Assembly: GCA_040752595.1 (NCBI GenBank)
Contig: JBFMGX010000004.1
Coordinates: forward strand, 429,346 to 493,345
Direction: 5' to 3'
DNA length: 64,000 bases
Origin: Candidatus Zixiibacteriota bacterium
GTDB lineage: Bacteria > Zixibacteria > MSB-5A5 > WJJR01
Shown: piece after piece, positions 10,814-64,000 of the stretch
Layout of the letters: each line of letters starts with the position of its first letter
Numbering within the stretch: the first letter of the stretch is position 1
The notes under the pieces: generated by a model
What the model saw: the letters and a program-made list of their open reading frames with translations, nothing else
What the model was told of the DNA's origin: nothing
The model's database searches: none
Translations under genes and position numbers: made by a program

Positions 10814-12289
10814 ATGGAGGACAAGGGGCTTAAGCCCCTTGTTTGCCAGACTCGGATGCCGATGCGTGCATTAGGAACCACCGAATCCGCTGCCACGGAC
10901 GCCTACTGGTCGGTGCCGACCGGGCTGCTGCGTAAGTACGACCGTCCGGGACCGCGATATACATCATATCCCACCGTGCCGGTCTGGACGGCGGATTTCG
11001 GCGCGGCGCAGTATGATGAGCACCTGAGGCGCTTCGCCGCCACCGACCGGCCGCTGTCGCTGTATGTACATCTGCCGTTCTGTCATGAGCGTTGCACCTT
11101 CTGCGGCTGCAATGTTGTCATCGCGCAACGGCAGGAGACAGTCGAACGGTACCTCGCGTATCTGTTTCGCGAGATCGATCACGTCGTTGATGTCATTGGG
11201 ACAGGGCGTCCCGTCCTGCAATTGAGCTGGGGCGGCGGTACGCCGACATTTCTGACGATTCCCCAGATCGACCGCCTCTGGCACACGCTGAATGATGCCT
11301 TCGCACTCGCTGCCGATGCTGAGGTGGCGATCGAAGTCGATCCACGCGTGACGACGCCGGAGCAGATGCGCCATCTGCGCGCGCTCGGTTTCAATCGTCT
11401 GTCGATGGGTGTGCAGGACCTCGATCCCGACGTGCAGACCGCGATCGGCCGGGGGCAGACGTTCGCACAGACGGAAACCACGCACGAACTTGGGCGCGCG
11501 CTGGGATTCACCGGGATCAACATGGATTTGATCTACGGCCTGCCGCGTCAGACGGTCGCCGAATTCCGCGCGACCATCGCGGCGGTGGCACGCTGGCGTC
11601 CCGACCGTTTGGCGGTCTACTCGTATGCGCATGTACCCTGGGGGCGGCCGCAGCAGATGCAGATCAATGAAGCGGAACTCCCGGCGGGACCGGAGAAATT
11701 CGCGCTCTTCGCGGTCGCGGTGCAGGGACTCTTGGCGGCGGGATACGATCCGATCGGCATGGATCACTTCGCGCTGTCGACCGACGAATTGGCCCAGGGA
11801 CTGACCAACGGGCGTTTGCATCGGAATTTCATGGGGTACACCGTGTCCGCATCACGCGACATTATCGGGCTGGGTGTCTCGGCCATCGGCGAGATAGCCG
11901 GCTGCTTCGCGCAGAACGACTCGCGTCTCGGTGCCTACTATCGACTCATAGACACAACCGGGAGTGGAATTCACCGGGGTTGGACATTGACGCGCGACGA
12001 TGAGATTCGCCGCGCGGCGATCCTGTCGATCATGTGCCGACTACGTTTGAGCTTCGACGGTATCAGCGAGCAGTTCGGCATCGATGCCGCGGAGTATTTC
12101 TCTTCCGAGATGGCACGACTGGAGGAGCTCACCGACGACGGCCTCGTACAGATCAATGCCGATGGCTTTGTCGTAACGTCGACCGGGCGGCATTTTGTGC
12201 GCAACATCGCGATGGTCTTCGATGCCTATCTGCCGCGTCTGACCGGGCAGGCAACGGCGAAGAAACCGATCTTCTCGCGGACGGTGTAA
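10814..12289 (+). CDS. hemN: Oxygen-independent coproporphyrinogen III oxidase (radical SAM)
   Basis: 491 residues. Oxidatively decarboxylates coproporphyrinogen III to protoporphyrinogen IX using S-adenosylmethionine. The radical-SAM cluster motif is visible as LPFCHERCTFCGCN (Cys90, 94, 97, plus 99), preceded by YVHLPF. The family-specific LSWGGGTPTFL, the FNRLSMGVQDLD segment and a C-terminal HemN winged-helix-like domain (MCRLRLSFDGI...) follow, which separates true HemN from HemW. The ATG at 10814 has GGAAGG five bases upstream, but residues 2-10 come from a 22-base palindrome. The in-frame ATGs at 10856/10862 are alternatives close to where the conserved region begins. Confidence 0.93.
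   Translation: MEDKGLKPLVCQTRMPMRALGTTESAATDAYWSVPTGLLRKYDRPGPRYTSYPTVPVWTADFGAAQYDEHLRRFAATDRPLSLYVHLPFCHERCTFCGCNVVIAQRQETVERYLAYLFREIDHVVDVIGTGRPVLQLSWGGGTPTFLTIPQIDRLWHTLNDAFALAADAEVAIEVDPRVTTPEQMRHLRALGFNRLSMGVQDLDPDVQTAIGRGQTFAQTETTHELGRALGFTGINMDLIYGLPRQTVAEFRATIAAVARWRPDRLAVYSYAHVPWGRPQQMQINEAELPAGPEKFALFAVAVQGLLAAGYDPIGMDHFALSTDELAQGLTNGRLHRNFMGYTVSASRDIIGLGVSAIGEIAGCFAQNDSRLGAYYRLIDTTGSGIHRGWTLTRDDEIRRAAILSIMCRLRLSFDGISEQFGIDAAEYFSSEMARLEELTDDGLVQINADGFVVTSTGRHFVRNIAMVFDAYLPRLTGQATAKKPIFSRTV
10821..10842. repeat. ACAAGGGGCT palindrome (22 bp) at the hemN 5' end
   Basis: Perfect self-complementary sequence of 22 bases (ACAAGGGGCTT / AAGCCCCTTGT), followed by TTGCC. The same core occurs at 12307, 16098, 34022 and 35843. 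If translation starts at 10814, this copy encodes DKGLKPLVC. Confidence 0.85.
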
Positions 12290-12306
12290 CCAAGACGGGA
12301 TCGTGG

Positions 12307-12416
12307 ACAAGGGGCTGAAGCCCCTTGGTTGCCAATAATGCCGAATTGCTCCCCATGTCATCCTGAGCGACTTGTCCCGAGCGAAAGCGAGGGAAGCGAA
12401 GGATCTGCTGTTCTCT
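12307..12416. repeat. Repeats between hemN and hemG
   Basis: ACAAGGGGCTGAAGCCCCTTGG (12307-12328, then TTGCC) is a copy of the 10821 element. Next, 12356-12416 carries TGTCATCCTGAGCGA..GAGCGAAAGCGAGGGAAGCGAAGGATCTGCTGTTCTC, the fullest single-arm copy of the TGAGCGAAGCGAAGG family. No gene lies here. Confidence 0.8.
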
Positions 12417-13890: not shown

Positions 13891-13986
13891 TGTCATTCCG
13901 AGTCCCGCCGCTCTTTGGCGGGGCGAGGAATCTGCTGTCCTGCCACCGGAGAAACAGCAGATCCCTCGCTTCGCTCGGGATGACAA
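13891..13986. repeat. Paired TGAGCGAAGCGAAGG-family element
   Basis: Two inverted arms: TGTCATTCCGAGTCCCG..GGCGAGGAATCTGCTGT on the left and ACAGCAGATCCCTCGCTTCG..GGGATGACA on the right. They would form a hairpin of nearly 100 bases. Similar paired copies occur at 38159-38246 and 61567-61648. Confidence 0.8.
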
Positions 13987-14040
13987 ATGGGCGCAAAGCA
14001 CCACTCCCATGGGTTTTCCAGCATGCCTCGCATGCCATGC

Positions 14041-16049: not shown

Positions 16050-16097
16050 CGGTATTTGCGGGACGACGCGATGAGTCATCGTGGCAGCCGTGGGCAA

Positions 16098-16229
16098 ACA
16101 AGGGGCTTCAGCCCCTTGGCCATCACTCCCACTGTTACACTTCTTCTACAACCAGTTGCGTAACCCGATTCCTGTGCGGTCGGGTGCCCACACCCGACCG
16201 CAGCGCCGGGTGTGGGCACCCGGCGCCGC
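16098..16229. repeat. Repeats in the 15802-16264 gap
   Basis: This gap has no gene. It holds ACAAGGGGCTTCAGCCCC (16098-16115) and copy 2 of the 56-bp element (16174-16229), almost identical to 1811-1866. The sequence CTACAACCAGTTGCGTAACCC just before copy 2 recurs at ~35802-35822 (CTACAATCAGTTGCACAACCC), and in inverted form after copy 1. Confidence 0.8.
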
Positions 16230-16264
16230 GAAGCTTGAGAGTGATTGAGTGCATGCAACTGATT

Positions 16265-26431: not shown

Positions 26432-27418
26432 TCACCGGAGCAGGAATCGCAGTGACACGCGATAGGTGGTGTCGAGAAATTCGTGATCGGTGAGGGCGCC
26501 GTCGACCGCCCACCGCCCGAGGGCGAAGCCGGCACCCAGTGCCAGTCGCCCGGCATCGGCGCCCACGCGCGCCGACAGTTGCTCCCGCCAGGCGATTTCC
26601 AGCCCCAGATGGAGATTCGTCGACAACGAGCCGCTCCAATACTGATCGGCGGCGCGGCGATCTTCAAAGTACGTCTCTGCTTCGCCGATCAGCGTGGCAC
26701 GGAGATCCGCCGAGACGGGTGGAAGGTCGAGCTCGCCGCCGCAGTTGATGTGCGGGAATATCGTCTCCTTGCGACCAGAGTCGTATGACAGGAAGGTCGT
26801 CGTCGCATCGGCCACCTTGGCTCCCGCCCGCACCCGTCGCCATTGATTCCACCAGGACAGATCCACACCCAGCCCCCAAGCGGAATTGCCCGGCAGATCG
26901 CGGGCGACGATCTTGGGGGTCACCCCGATCGATCCCCATCGGGCGGTGCGACGCGCCAGCCCAAACGCAAGCGCCCAGTCGGCATGACGAGCGGTGCGGT
27001 CGACACGCGGGCGCCCGGTTGTCGAATCGAACACGGTCAGTTGGATGCCGCTGCCGCCCAGATAGTAGATCGAGGCCCCCCACGCCCACCCCGAGGTTCC
27101 GGGGGGCATGGCCACGGCGACGAAGTCGTGATTCAGAAGTGACCCGAATGCCTCGGCGTGTTGGGCCAGAATCTCCGGTCGGGAGAGGATGGCGGCCGCG
27201 GCGAAATTCCAGTACAGCACCGAGGCGTCGGGACGCGAGGCAACGAAGGCCCCGCCCCGCCCCAGCGCACGCCCGCCGACACCCAGGTAGTAGGGCTCTC
27301 CGGCGAACTTGGTTGCACGGGCGTCGGTGCAGTGACCGAGAAGCAGCAACACCGCTGAGAAACAGCAGATCCCTCGCTTCGCTCGGGATGGCAAGTGCCT
27401 GTGCGCCGACGTTCGCAT
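26432..27418 (-). CDS. PorV/PorQ-like outer-membrane protein
   Basis: 328 residues from the ATG at 27418. The conserved opening GVGGRALGRGGAFVASRPDASVLYWN (~38-63) is the hallmark of the PorV/PorQ (UPF0164-like) beta-barrel family. The rest shows alternating hydrophobic strands ending in VSLRFLLR. In Bacteroidetes PorV serves type IX secretion; no other T9SS component is visible here, so this may be one of the non-T9SS relatives common in FCB phyla. Its signal peptide is odd: residues ~8-20 (HLPSRAKRGICCF) are encoded by a copy of the dispersed GCAGATCCCTCGCTTCGCTC element at 27357-27393. An ORF extends in frame further upstream, to 27577. Confidence 0.82.
   Translation of the reverse strand: MRTSAHRHLPSRAKRGICCFSAVLLLLGHCTDARATKFAGEPYYLGVGGRALGRGGAFVASRPDASVLYWNFAAAAILSRPEILAQHAEAFGSLLNHDFVAVAMPPGTSGWAWGASIYYLGGSGIQLTVFDSTTGRPRVDRTARHADWALAFGLARRTARWGSIGVTPKIVARDLPGNSAWGLGVDLSWWNQWRRVRAGAKVADATTTFLSYDSGRKETIFPHINCGGELDLPPVSADLRATLIGEAETYFEDRRAADQYWSGSLSTNLHLGLEIAWREQLSARVGADAGRLALGAGFALGRWAVDGALTDHEFLDTTYRVSLRFLLR
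27357..27393. repeat. TGAGCGAAGCGAAGG-family element inside a signal peptide
   Basis: GAGAAACAGCAGATCCCTCG followed by CTTCGCTCGGGATGGCA matches the right arm of the element at 13891-13986 almost base for base. Here it lies within the coding sequence of the PorV-like protein. Confidence 0.85.
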
Positions 27419-27671
27419 ACGTCCCGCTACGATCGCCCAATCTGCCCCGGGCGGATTCCCTTCGGGCCTGTCGCCGGGGCAAACGGCGCCAAGATATGGA
27501 GTCGAGCGTGACTCACGAACCGAAAAGTCGGGGGATCGCATAGGGTCATTGCTCGAGGACGTCGAGCACAGATCCAACCCGGCCCGTTACCCATTCACGC
27601 AGGAATGAGAGATGGTCGTCGTGGCCGCTGAATCCCTTGCCGCGATCGTCTCCCCAAGGGAAATGGCGAAG

Positions 27672-27729
27672 ATAACCTCTCCCTCCGGGAGAGGTCGGTC
27701 CATCCGAAGGATGGACCGGGTGAGGGAGT
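27672..27729. repeat. Copy of the ACCTCTCCCTCCGGGAGAGGT element
   Basis: Two hairpins, ACCTCTCCCTCCGGGAGAGGT and GGTCCATCCGAAGGATGGACC, followed by GGGTGAGGGAG. The family also occurs at 32131, 48742, 61679 and 63948. Confidence 0.85.
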
Positions 27730-27785
27730 CTTCTCGTTCTCACCCTGGCGAATTCCGAAGACGACCCCTGCCGACGGACAAAAAA

Positions 27786-27857
27786 AGCTACCGTTGTTCA
27801 AATTTATCCGAGAGGGGGGCAGGGAAACTCGGATAAAGTGCGGAAACAACGGTAGCT
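27786..27857 (-). terminator. Long hairpin terminator downstream of the thioredoxin-like gene
   Basis: Two-part stem: outer arms of 13 bases (AGCTACCGTTGTT 27786-27798 / AACAACGGTAGCT 27845-27857) and inner arms of nine (TTATCCGAG 27804-27812 / CTCGGATAA 27828-27836). On the - strand the hairpin ends AGCTTTTTTTGTC, a classic T-run. It lies 167 bases after the stop of the thioredoxin-like gene. It is much longer than a minimal terminator and could be a processed 3' UTR structure or small RNA. Confidence 0.8.
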
Positions 27858-27944
27858 ATTGTATTCTCTTGTCGGCTCAGTCGCCCCGATCCCAATTGCA
27901 ATTAACAGGCCAGTGCCCCGAAGTCAAACGAAATCTCCCACCTC

Positions 27945-27969
27945 CACCATAAAGTAGTACTTTAAGGTG
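27945..27969. promoter_or_regulatory. Inverted repeat in the AT-rich 3' region of the thioredoxin-like gene
   Basis: CACC-A-TAAAGTA-G-TACTTTA-A-GGTG: twelve-base arms with one A-A mismatch around a single central base. Found between the long hairpin and the gene's stop codon, in DNA much richer in A+T than its surroundings. It may be an operator, an RNA stem or a mobile-element end; undetermined. Confidence 0.45.
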
Positions 27970-28024
27970 AGTCTGAGACTTCCGTCAGTAACTGTGTCGG
28001 TGCGAATGGAACGGAGTTTACTTT

Positions 28025-32100: not shown

Positions 32101-32342
32101 TCGGGGCACGGCGCGCCGTGCCCGATGAGCTCCCTCACCCGATCCGCCGGCGGCGCCGTGGCTGCCGGCAGGCAGGGATCGACCTCTCCCGGAGGGAGAG
32201 GTTATCCAGGGCAATCCGCCTCTCCCCTTGTTCGTACGATTCTGATCCGGAAGGCGCAGGTCATCTTTGTGTCGGGGCGAGGCGCTGCCTCGCCCAAGGG
32301 CGACCCGCGCCAGAGGCGCGCAGGCACCGAGTCGCCCCTACA
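32101..32342. repeat. Three elements between dnaE and the cpgS-like gene
   Basis: TCGGGGCACGGCGCGCCGTGCCCGA palindrome (32101-32125). CTCACCCGATCCGCC..GGATCGACCTCTCCCGGAGGGAGAGGTTA element (32131-32203) interrupted by a CGCCGTGGCTGCC insertion-like segment. GTCGGGGCGAGGC..CGAGTCGCCCCTAC element (32271-32342). No coding potential seen. Confidence 0.75.
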
Positions 32343-35740: not shown

Positions 35741-35866
35741 GTCGGGGCAGCATCGGGCGCACGCCGTGCGCCCCGACCGAACAAGACTGTTGCGGCCGCT
35801 ACAATCAGTTGCACAACCCCCCATGTTTCGCAACAACCGGCAAACAAGGGGCTTAAGCCCCTTGTT
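35741..35866. repeat. Elements in the gap between aldehyde dehydrogenase and MATE genes
   Basis: GTCGGGGCAGCATCGGGCGC..GTGCGCCCCGAC (35741-35777) and a perfect 24-base ACAAGGGGCTTAAGCCCCTTGT-type palindrome (35843-35866). Between them lies CTACAATCAGTTGCACAACCC, related to the flank of the 16174 element. The rest of 35602-35918 shows nothing coding. Confidence 0.8.
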
Positions 35867-35918
35867 CACCCATCCAATGCCGAGCTGCCACAGTCCTTGA
35901 GAGGTTATGCGATCGATT

Positions 35919-48741: not shown

Positions 48742-48793
48742 ACCCTCACTCGATCCGCCGTAGGCGGATCGACCTCTCCCTCCGGGAAAGGGC
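48742..48793. repeat. CTCACTCGATCCGCC...GGATCGACCTCTCCC element inside the superoperon
   Basis: Contains CGATCCGCCGTAGGCGGATCG and ACCTCTCCCTCCGGG, the same composition as 61679-61778 and 32131-32203. It lies between the DUF503 and rbfA genes. Confidence 0.85.
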
Positions 48794-61566: not shown

Positions 61567-61778
61567 TGTCACCCTGAGCGAAGCGAAGGGTCTGCTTTCC
61601 CCTTCTTGGAGAGAACAGCAGATGCTTCGCTTCGCTCAGCATGACAATCCCCCGTTTCTGTCTTTGATCCAGGGAGAATCCCTCACCCGATCCGCCTGCG
61701 GCGGATCGACCTCTCCCGGAGGGAGAGGTTAACTTTCCCCCTCTCCCTCCGGGAGAGGGCCGGGGTGAGGGGCGGAGC
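61567..61778. repeat. Paired TGAGCGAAGCGAAGG element and ACCTCTCCC element
   Basis: 61567-61648: CTGTCACCCTGAGCGAAGCG..AGAACAGCAGATGCTTCGCTTCGCTCAGCATGACA, a near-100-base hairpin. 61679-61778: CCTCACCCGATCCGCCTGCGGCGGATCGACCTCTCCCGGAGGGAGAGGTT and CCCTCTCCCTCCGGGAGAGGGCCGGGGTGAGGGG, two inverted halves. No gene lies in 61446-61890. Confidence 0.85.
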
Positions 61779-63947: not shown

Positions 63948-64000
63948 CCCTCACCCGCCTGGACCGTTGGTCCAGGCGACCTCTCCCGGAGGGAGAGGTT
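63948..64000. repeat. ACCTCTCCCGGAGGGAGAGGT element, continuing past the window
   Basis: CTCCCTCACCCGCCTGGACCGTTGGTCCAGGCGACCTCTCCCGGAGGGAGAGGTT, the fourth clear copy of the 27672/32131/48742/61679 family. The right boundary is not visible. Confidence 0.8.

Follow-up and report, generated by a model that had tools for sequence, protein, structure and literature searches.

Introduction

The GTAG and CGTC REPs described by Di Nocera et al. (2013; PMC3733652) are 20-40 bp hairpins with a four-base end tag. Like the Rickettsia palindromic elements (RPEs), they reach high copy number, are mostly intergenic and often form pairs in opposite orientation. Some are also read in frame within genes, N-termini included; most of the REPs reported at predicted N-termini were judged untranslated, and Rickettsia proteins carrying palindromic-element inserts are expressed (PMC3733652). 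A repeat within a predicted signal peptide has been described in YPO1552 of Yersinia pestis, where the repeat is RU-2, a 168-bp MITE-like unit (Delihas 2007, PMC2759123). In REPINs, two inverted arms form a larger unit (PMC3116915).

Here we describe a hairpin repeat that shares these general features of REPs and lies in the leader of a PorV-like gene of a Candidatus Zixiibacteriota bacterium (GCA_040752595.1). We analyzed a stretch of 64,000 nt, referred to as the window (contig JBFMGX010000004.1, positions 429,346-493,345, forward strand), from a multi-contig assembly of 2.94 Mb in 50 contigs; related records are metagenome-assembled. Our main reading, with a probability of roughly 0.7, is that a REP-like hairpin amplified in this lineage inserted at the 5' end of the porV-like gene and is translated as part of its signal peptide. 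In contrast with the RU-2 case, the repeat is a hairpin arm of 36-41 nt and the protein is a predicted barrel that we could compare with 79 orthologues. The porV case is of the same kind as the known intragenic REP and RPE repeats; it documents that kind well without establishing a new principle. It adds an orthologue comparison, a hybrid hydrophobic core and a repeat family that appears to stand outside the two described superfamilies.

Results

A repeat copy in the leader of the porV-like gene

The features at the locus are as follows.
26432..27418, minus strand: gene for a PorV-like outer-membrane beta-barrel protein from ATG 27418, mature part from T36 (27313), predicted from orthologues and AlphaFold2
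27314..27418, minus strand: predicted 35-residue signal peptide MRTSAHRHLPSRAKRGICCFSAVLLLLGHCTDARA, with an A-R-A cleavage motif before TKFAGEP, aligned with orthologues
27357..27397, minus strand: REP-like repeat copy in the porV leader, 41 nt (structural model match 27358-27393, 60.8 bits, E 4e-15)
27369..27389, minus strand: hairpin core ATCCC-GA-GC-GNA-GC-GA-GGGAT of this copy, 7 of 7 pairs intact

A blastn comparison within the window aligned 27357-27397 with 13949-13989 over 41 nt at 95% identity, with 34 consecutive identical bases (E 1.7e-14). Read on the minus strand in the frame of ATG 27418, these 41 nt encode H8-F20 (HLPSRAKRGICCF) and two bases of the Ser21 codon, and SAVLLLLG follows directly. 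The leader from this ATG is MRTSAHR-HLPSRAKRGICCF-SAVLLLLGHCTDARA and continues after the predicted cut as TKFAGEPYYLG, and the protein start reads MRTSAHRHLPSRAKRGICCFSAVLLLLGHCTDARATKFAGEPYYLG. An initial annotation made from the sequence had assigned residues ~8-20 of the protein to a repeat copy with a hydrophobic core immediately behind it, and had called the result basic and hydrophobic. Our analysis bears out each of these points, the last by simple composition measures and for a signal that is predicted only. It had also treated 13891-13986 as the element. The right arm of that stretch does match, but 13891-13942 turned out to be another copy, inverted and elaborated. The stretch thus consists of two inverted arms, whereas the porV copy has a single arm. 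The other copies in the window are listed below.

13950..13985, minus strand: reference copy, right arm of the pair, 65.1 bits
13891..13942, plus strand: inverted partner arm, loop replaced by a further hairpin, 36.9 bits
61567..61646: second paired copy of the family, from family membership and the structural model
12356..12415, plus strand: single diverged copy, 45.6 bits
38160..38244: decayed paired copy, 27.2 and 18.4 bits

The partner arm 13891-13942, with its extra hairpin in place of the triloop, possibly belongs to one subtype with 59-63-nt matches elsewhere in the genome (G000:C15:29354, C18:25471 and C18:27514). A mir-515 match over 61567-61646 fell far under its cut-off and reflects merely a long hairpin. 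The palindrome-like stretch 27416-27483, just upstream of the porV copy, was ruled out as a second repeat, being single-copy.

The repeat is REP-like and conserved through compensatory change

A 27-mer core of the repeat matched the 2.94-Mb genome 76 times at up to three mismatches, compared with 0 matches for the reversed control. A covariance model built on 30 sequences of the repeat family detected at least 150 copies in the genome of the window; the matches listed for each of six other genomes of the taxonomic family included 8-59 copies. In the rest of the class a 25-base core pattern was patchy and sparse, with any match in 17 of 58 genomes, the own family counted. Rfam held no family matching the element itself within 27300-27900, and literature searches for this hairpin motif or for Zixibacteria repeats returned nothing relevant.

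The repeat consensus is TGTCATCCCGAGCGNAGCGAGGGATCTGCTGTTTCT. In copies selected by a pattern without a pairing requirement, the stem pairs covary as ATCCC/GGGAT, ATTCC/GGAAT, ACCCC/GGGGT, ATGCC/GGCAT and ATCCT/AGGAT, and an inner pair swap from GC/GC to AC/GT is also seen. We counted 18 cells changed on both sides among 30 distinct rows; the mean of shuffled alignments was 2.7, none of 500 shuffles reached 18, and slid controls gave 0-4 cells. Seven genomes provided a larger set of 172 copies. These show next to no variation in the tandem G.A / A.G mismatches or in the GNA loop, where N alone varies freely, and G-T pairs are nearly absent from them (a handful of cells). Covariation in this larger set is partly built in, because its selection pattern demands at least 6 of 7 pairs with the outermost pair fixed. 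The oligonucleotide d(GCGNAGC) is an unusually stable DNA mini-hairpin, and the scarcity of G-T pairs would be easier to explain by a constraint on DNA hairpins than by one on RNA. The family, with its G.A mismatches and GNA loop, would be a good substrate for tests of single-stranded DNA recognition.

That the match is a coincidence, or a palindrome of low complexity that is neither mobile nor amplified, is an extremely remote possibility: it is refuted by copy number (76 against 0) and by the compensatory stem changes. Short, capable of forming a hairpin and conserved through compensatory change, the palindrome is present in high copy number and is mainly extragenic: gene calling by codon usage, trained on the window, put 71 of 75 copies between genes. 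Taking together the hairpin, compensatory change, copy number and facing arms, we conclude that the element is REP-like.

Within the REPs, the element differs from both described superfamilies. Its consensus tag is TGTC rather than GTAG or CGTC, though a single copy in the set has CGTC. CGTC REPs have a loop of 4-5 bases and a CCA tail, whereas this element has a GNA triloop and a CTGCTGTTTCT tail. Its stem carries the nearly invariant tandem G.A mismatches, unlike GTAG and CGTC REPs, and it nearly lacks the G-T pairing that is frequent in the REPs of PMC3733652. Because tag, loop and tail differ, the element is neither a GTAG nor a CGTC REP as defined there, and on sequence grounds the family looks like a REP class outside these superfamilies. 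Its resemblance to REPINs lies in the two inverted arms of a larger unit, a facing arm lying within 90 bases for about 60 of 91 copies in this genome; the porV copy differs in being a single arm, and we found no link to a RAYT transposase. RAYT-associated REPs flank a Y1 transposase gene, and a strict hairpin scan placed no copy within about 1.5 kb of the 7 Y1_Tnp matches in the genome. With no strict copy near any of them, the genome's Y1 transposases are only tentative candidates for its mobilization.

The gene encodes a predicted PorV-like barrel

The porV-like gene occupies the minus-strand open frame 26432-27577 and encodes a core of 302 residues, with orthologues throughout the 58 genomes searched at 34-70% identity, the highest value being to a genus relative. 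An AlphaFold2 model of the protein forms a barrel (pLDDT 87.9). Its best PDB matches, followed by FadL, are 8gl6_F (E 1e-13, TMq 0.75) and 6h3i_F, both from T9SS complexes; the structure table names the complexes only, and we take chain F of each to be PorV. The predicted fold thus resembles solved T9SS PorV. The score against NF033709 (NCBIfam PorV_fam, the PorV/PorQ family) was 74.1 bits, below the curated cut-off of 90, which seven further matches in this genome exceed, and formal membership does not apply. We conclude that PorV-like is a fair name for the protein, and its predicted outer-membrane location is well supported by the model.

Orthologous leaders lack the element

The initial annotation had proposed comparing the leaders of orthologues. 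In the GTDB genome collection, a query with one sequence gave no match and an alignment query gave 80. We ran this comparison on 79 Zixibacteria orthologues, most of them named Candidatus Zixiibacteriota, and found the element in the leader, up to 200 bases upstream, in 0 of 79. Since all 79 lack it, the insertion is specific to this lineage. We also searched the upstream alignment to relatives for an empty site and recovered none, no relative being close enough.

The cleavage motifs of the orthologues that align with A-R-A are ARA, ASA, AWG and ANA, before T-K/Q-Y/F-A-G. Read from ATG 27418, the leader has the predicted make-up of a Sec/signal peptidase I signal, with a basic n-region, an uncharged core and small residues at -3 and -1; its quality was judged by simple composition measures. 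Orthologue leaders are mostly 19-31 residues long, and 35 is at the long end. In six relatives of the same family, leaders span 19-30 residues with uncharged runs of 12-16 and net positive n-regions. The uncharged core has 13 residues, 5 from the element (GICCF) and the rest from the gene (SAVLLLLG); the element also contributes RAKR. Without the element the uncharged run shrinks from 13 residues to SAVLLLLG.

Choice of start codon and competing explanations

Two alternative starts were considered alongside ATG 27418.
27392..27394, minus strand: alternative start TTG at the element edge, MPSRAKRGICCF..., with a 27-residue leader, a length within the orthologue range
27350..27352, minus strand: alternative start GTG, chosen by the codon-usage caller, with the element untranslated and a 13-residue leader without an n-region

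The element could be an untranslated 5' leader whose hairpin acts, if at all, as RNA, with initiation at GTG 27352 or TTG 27349, the only starts that exclude it. The codon-usage caller does begin at 27352, the other copies are almost all intergenic and most published N-terminal REPs were judged non-coding (PMC3733652). The caller's choice arises because leaders have atypical codons. Moreover, these starts leave 12-13 residues (MLLLLGHCTDARA or less), with no charged n-region and just 5-6 uncharged residues in a row, compared with 19-30 and 12-16 in the relatives; no orthologue has a leader as short as that from GTG 27352, and barrel proteins of this family have to be exported. We therefore regard an untranslated element as unlikely. 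A gene in decay, its leader broken by the insertion and export lost, is less probable still. SAVLLLLG alone is shorter than the core of any family relative, and the upstream region is crowded by other repeats; against this, all 302 codons of the barrel remain in an open frame, with 70% identity to the genus relative.

In a variant of our main reading, the element also provides the start, at TTG 27394, giving MPSRAKRGICCFSAVLLLLGHCTDARA and the same outcome at the level of the protein. This variant is a possible but tentative choice. Its 27 residues match the orthologue lengths, and the repeat consensus in the porV frame opens TTG TCA TCC CGA, but TTG is a weak start, a Shine-Dalgarno sequence is absent and an in-frame ATG lies 8 codons upstream. 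Before ATG 27418 there is likewise no Shine-Dalgarno sequence, a signal present in only 10 of 36 strong window genes, and no sigma-70 match was found in 27340-28000. The region upstream has weak similarity to that of a relative, G002 (p about 0.04), which hints that ATG 27418 could lie in an old promoter, favoring TTG 27394. Provided that the protein is exported, translation very probably runs through the element, starting at ATG 27418 (35 residues) or at TTG 27394 (27 residues).

Returning to the main reading of a translated insertion, the claim that the element was captured into the leader of an outer-membrane protein gains support from the barrel fold, its absence from every orthologous leader and the usable starts, which translate through it. 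A REP-like repeat, amplified in a Zixibacteria lineage and normally intergenic, would have inserted 5' of the gene after the split from the nearest sampled relatives, presumably in a transposition-like event via a single-stranded hairpin. Its frame SRAKRGICCF would supply the basic n-region RAKR and the first five core residues, GICCF; the remainder of the core, SAVLLLLG, and the A-R-A cleavage site would come from the gene itself. The protein would then leave by the ordinary Sec route and be cut by signal peptidase I before TKFAG. The insertion may have entered a complete leader, or the start may have moved upstream afterwards. Translation of the element and export of the protein are what we infer from these data. 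At this locus one can test whether a selfish hairpin repeat has become working protein sequence, in a part of the protein, the signal peptide, for which almost any sequence both basic and hydrophobic suffices. Gene-start annotation near REP copies needs a comparison of orthologous leaders, because both "coding" and "untranslated" calls can be wrong.

Copies in putative leaders of other exported proteins

Frames that cross a copy into a gene mostly have an ATG downstream of the element. Such frames were rejected as leaders, for example that of HslV (L078), which has a proper ATG below the element. The notable in-gene exceptions in the window's genome are all exported proteins: the porV-like protein, a lipoprotein (L056) and a secreted protein (L057). 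In L056 (1623-2105; G000:C4:219022-219504) the same element is read in another frame (HPERSEGSA) to give MSEQPEARTCHPERSEGSAVHVGPITFIVLGIALCALGC. It sits between the sole upstream ATG and the lipobox, the remaining alternative start being a TTG within the core; relatives of L056 lack the element and have ordinary lipoprotein leaders at that place. In L057 (1687-1760; G000:C4, about 228683-228756) the element abuts a hydrophobic core in the porV frame, giving SRAKRGICCLWKVLLSPMLICIAACP. No close upstream ATG is present, and a GTG within the core might serve as start.

A broader view treats the repeat as a portable half signal peptide that has supplied export leaders more than once. One of its open frames would give a TTG start, the basic SRAKR and a core beginning GICCF, and the leaders supplied would be that of porV and possibly that of L057, in the same frame; L056 uses another frame. 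We consider this view doubtful.

The upstream region and other repeats in the window

In several family orthologues (L015-L019), a TATATT or TATCTT box lies 6-8 bases before the ATG, without a Shine-Dalgarno sequence, an arrangement that suggests leaderless transcripts. On the minus strand, a long stem-loop followed by T's (27787-27870) ends the upstream thioredoxin-like gene and is nearly identical in the genus relative (L018:2456-2535). The distance from this stem-loop to the porV start is short in the relative and about 370 bases in the window.

An interspersed repeat at 27673-27727 and 61679-61731 resembles Rfam whalefall-1 at scores of 27.1 and 29.5 bits, which do not reach the cut-off of 37, and has further copies near 32131-32204, 48742-48793 and 63977-64000. 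Judging from these matches, all or part of the whalefall-1 RNA family may represent a dispersed repeat of this phylum. A 62-nt palindromic repeat built around GGTCGGGTGCCCACACCCGACC occurs at 1810-1871 and 16173-16234, the two copies sharing 92% identity. Finally, a short palindromic repeat, ACAAGGGGCTTAAGCCCCTTG, has at least four copies in the window, at 10814-10848, 12300-12334, 16091-16125 and 35837-35871.
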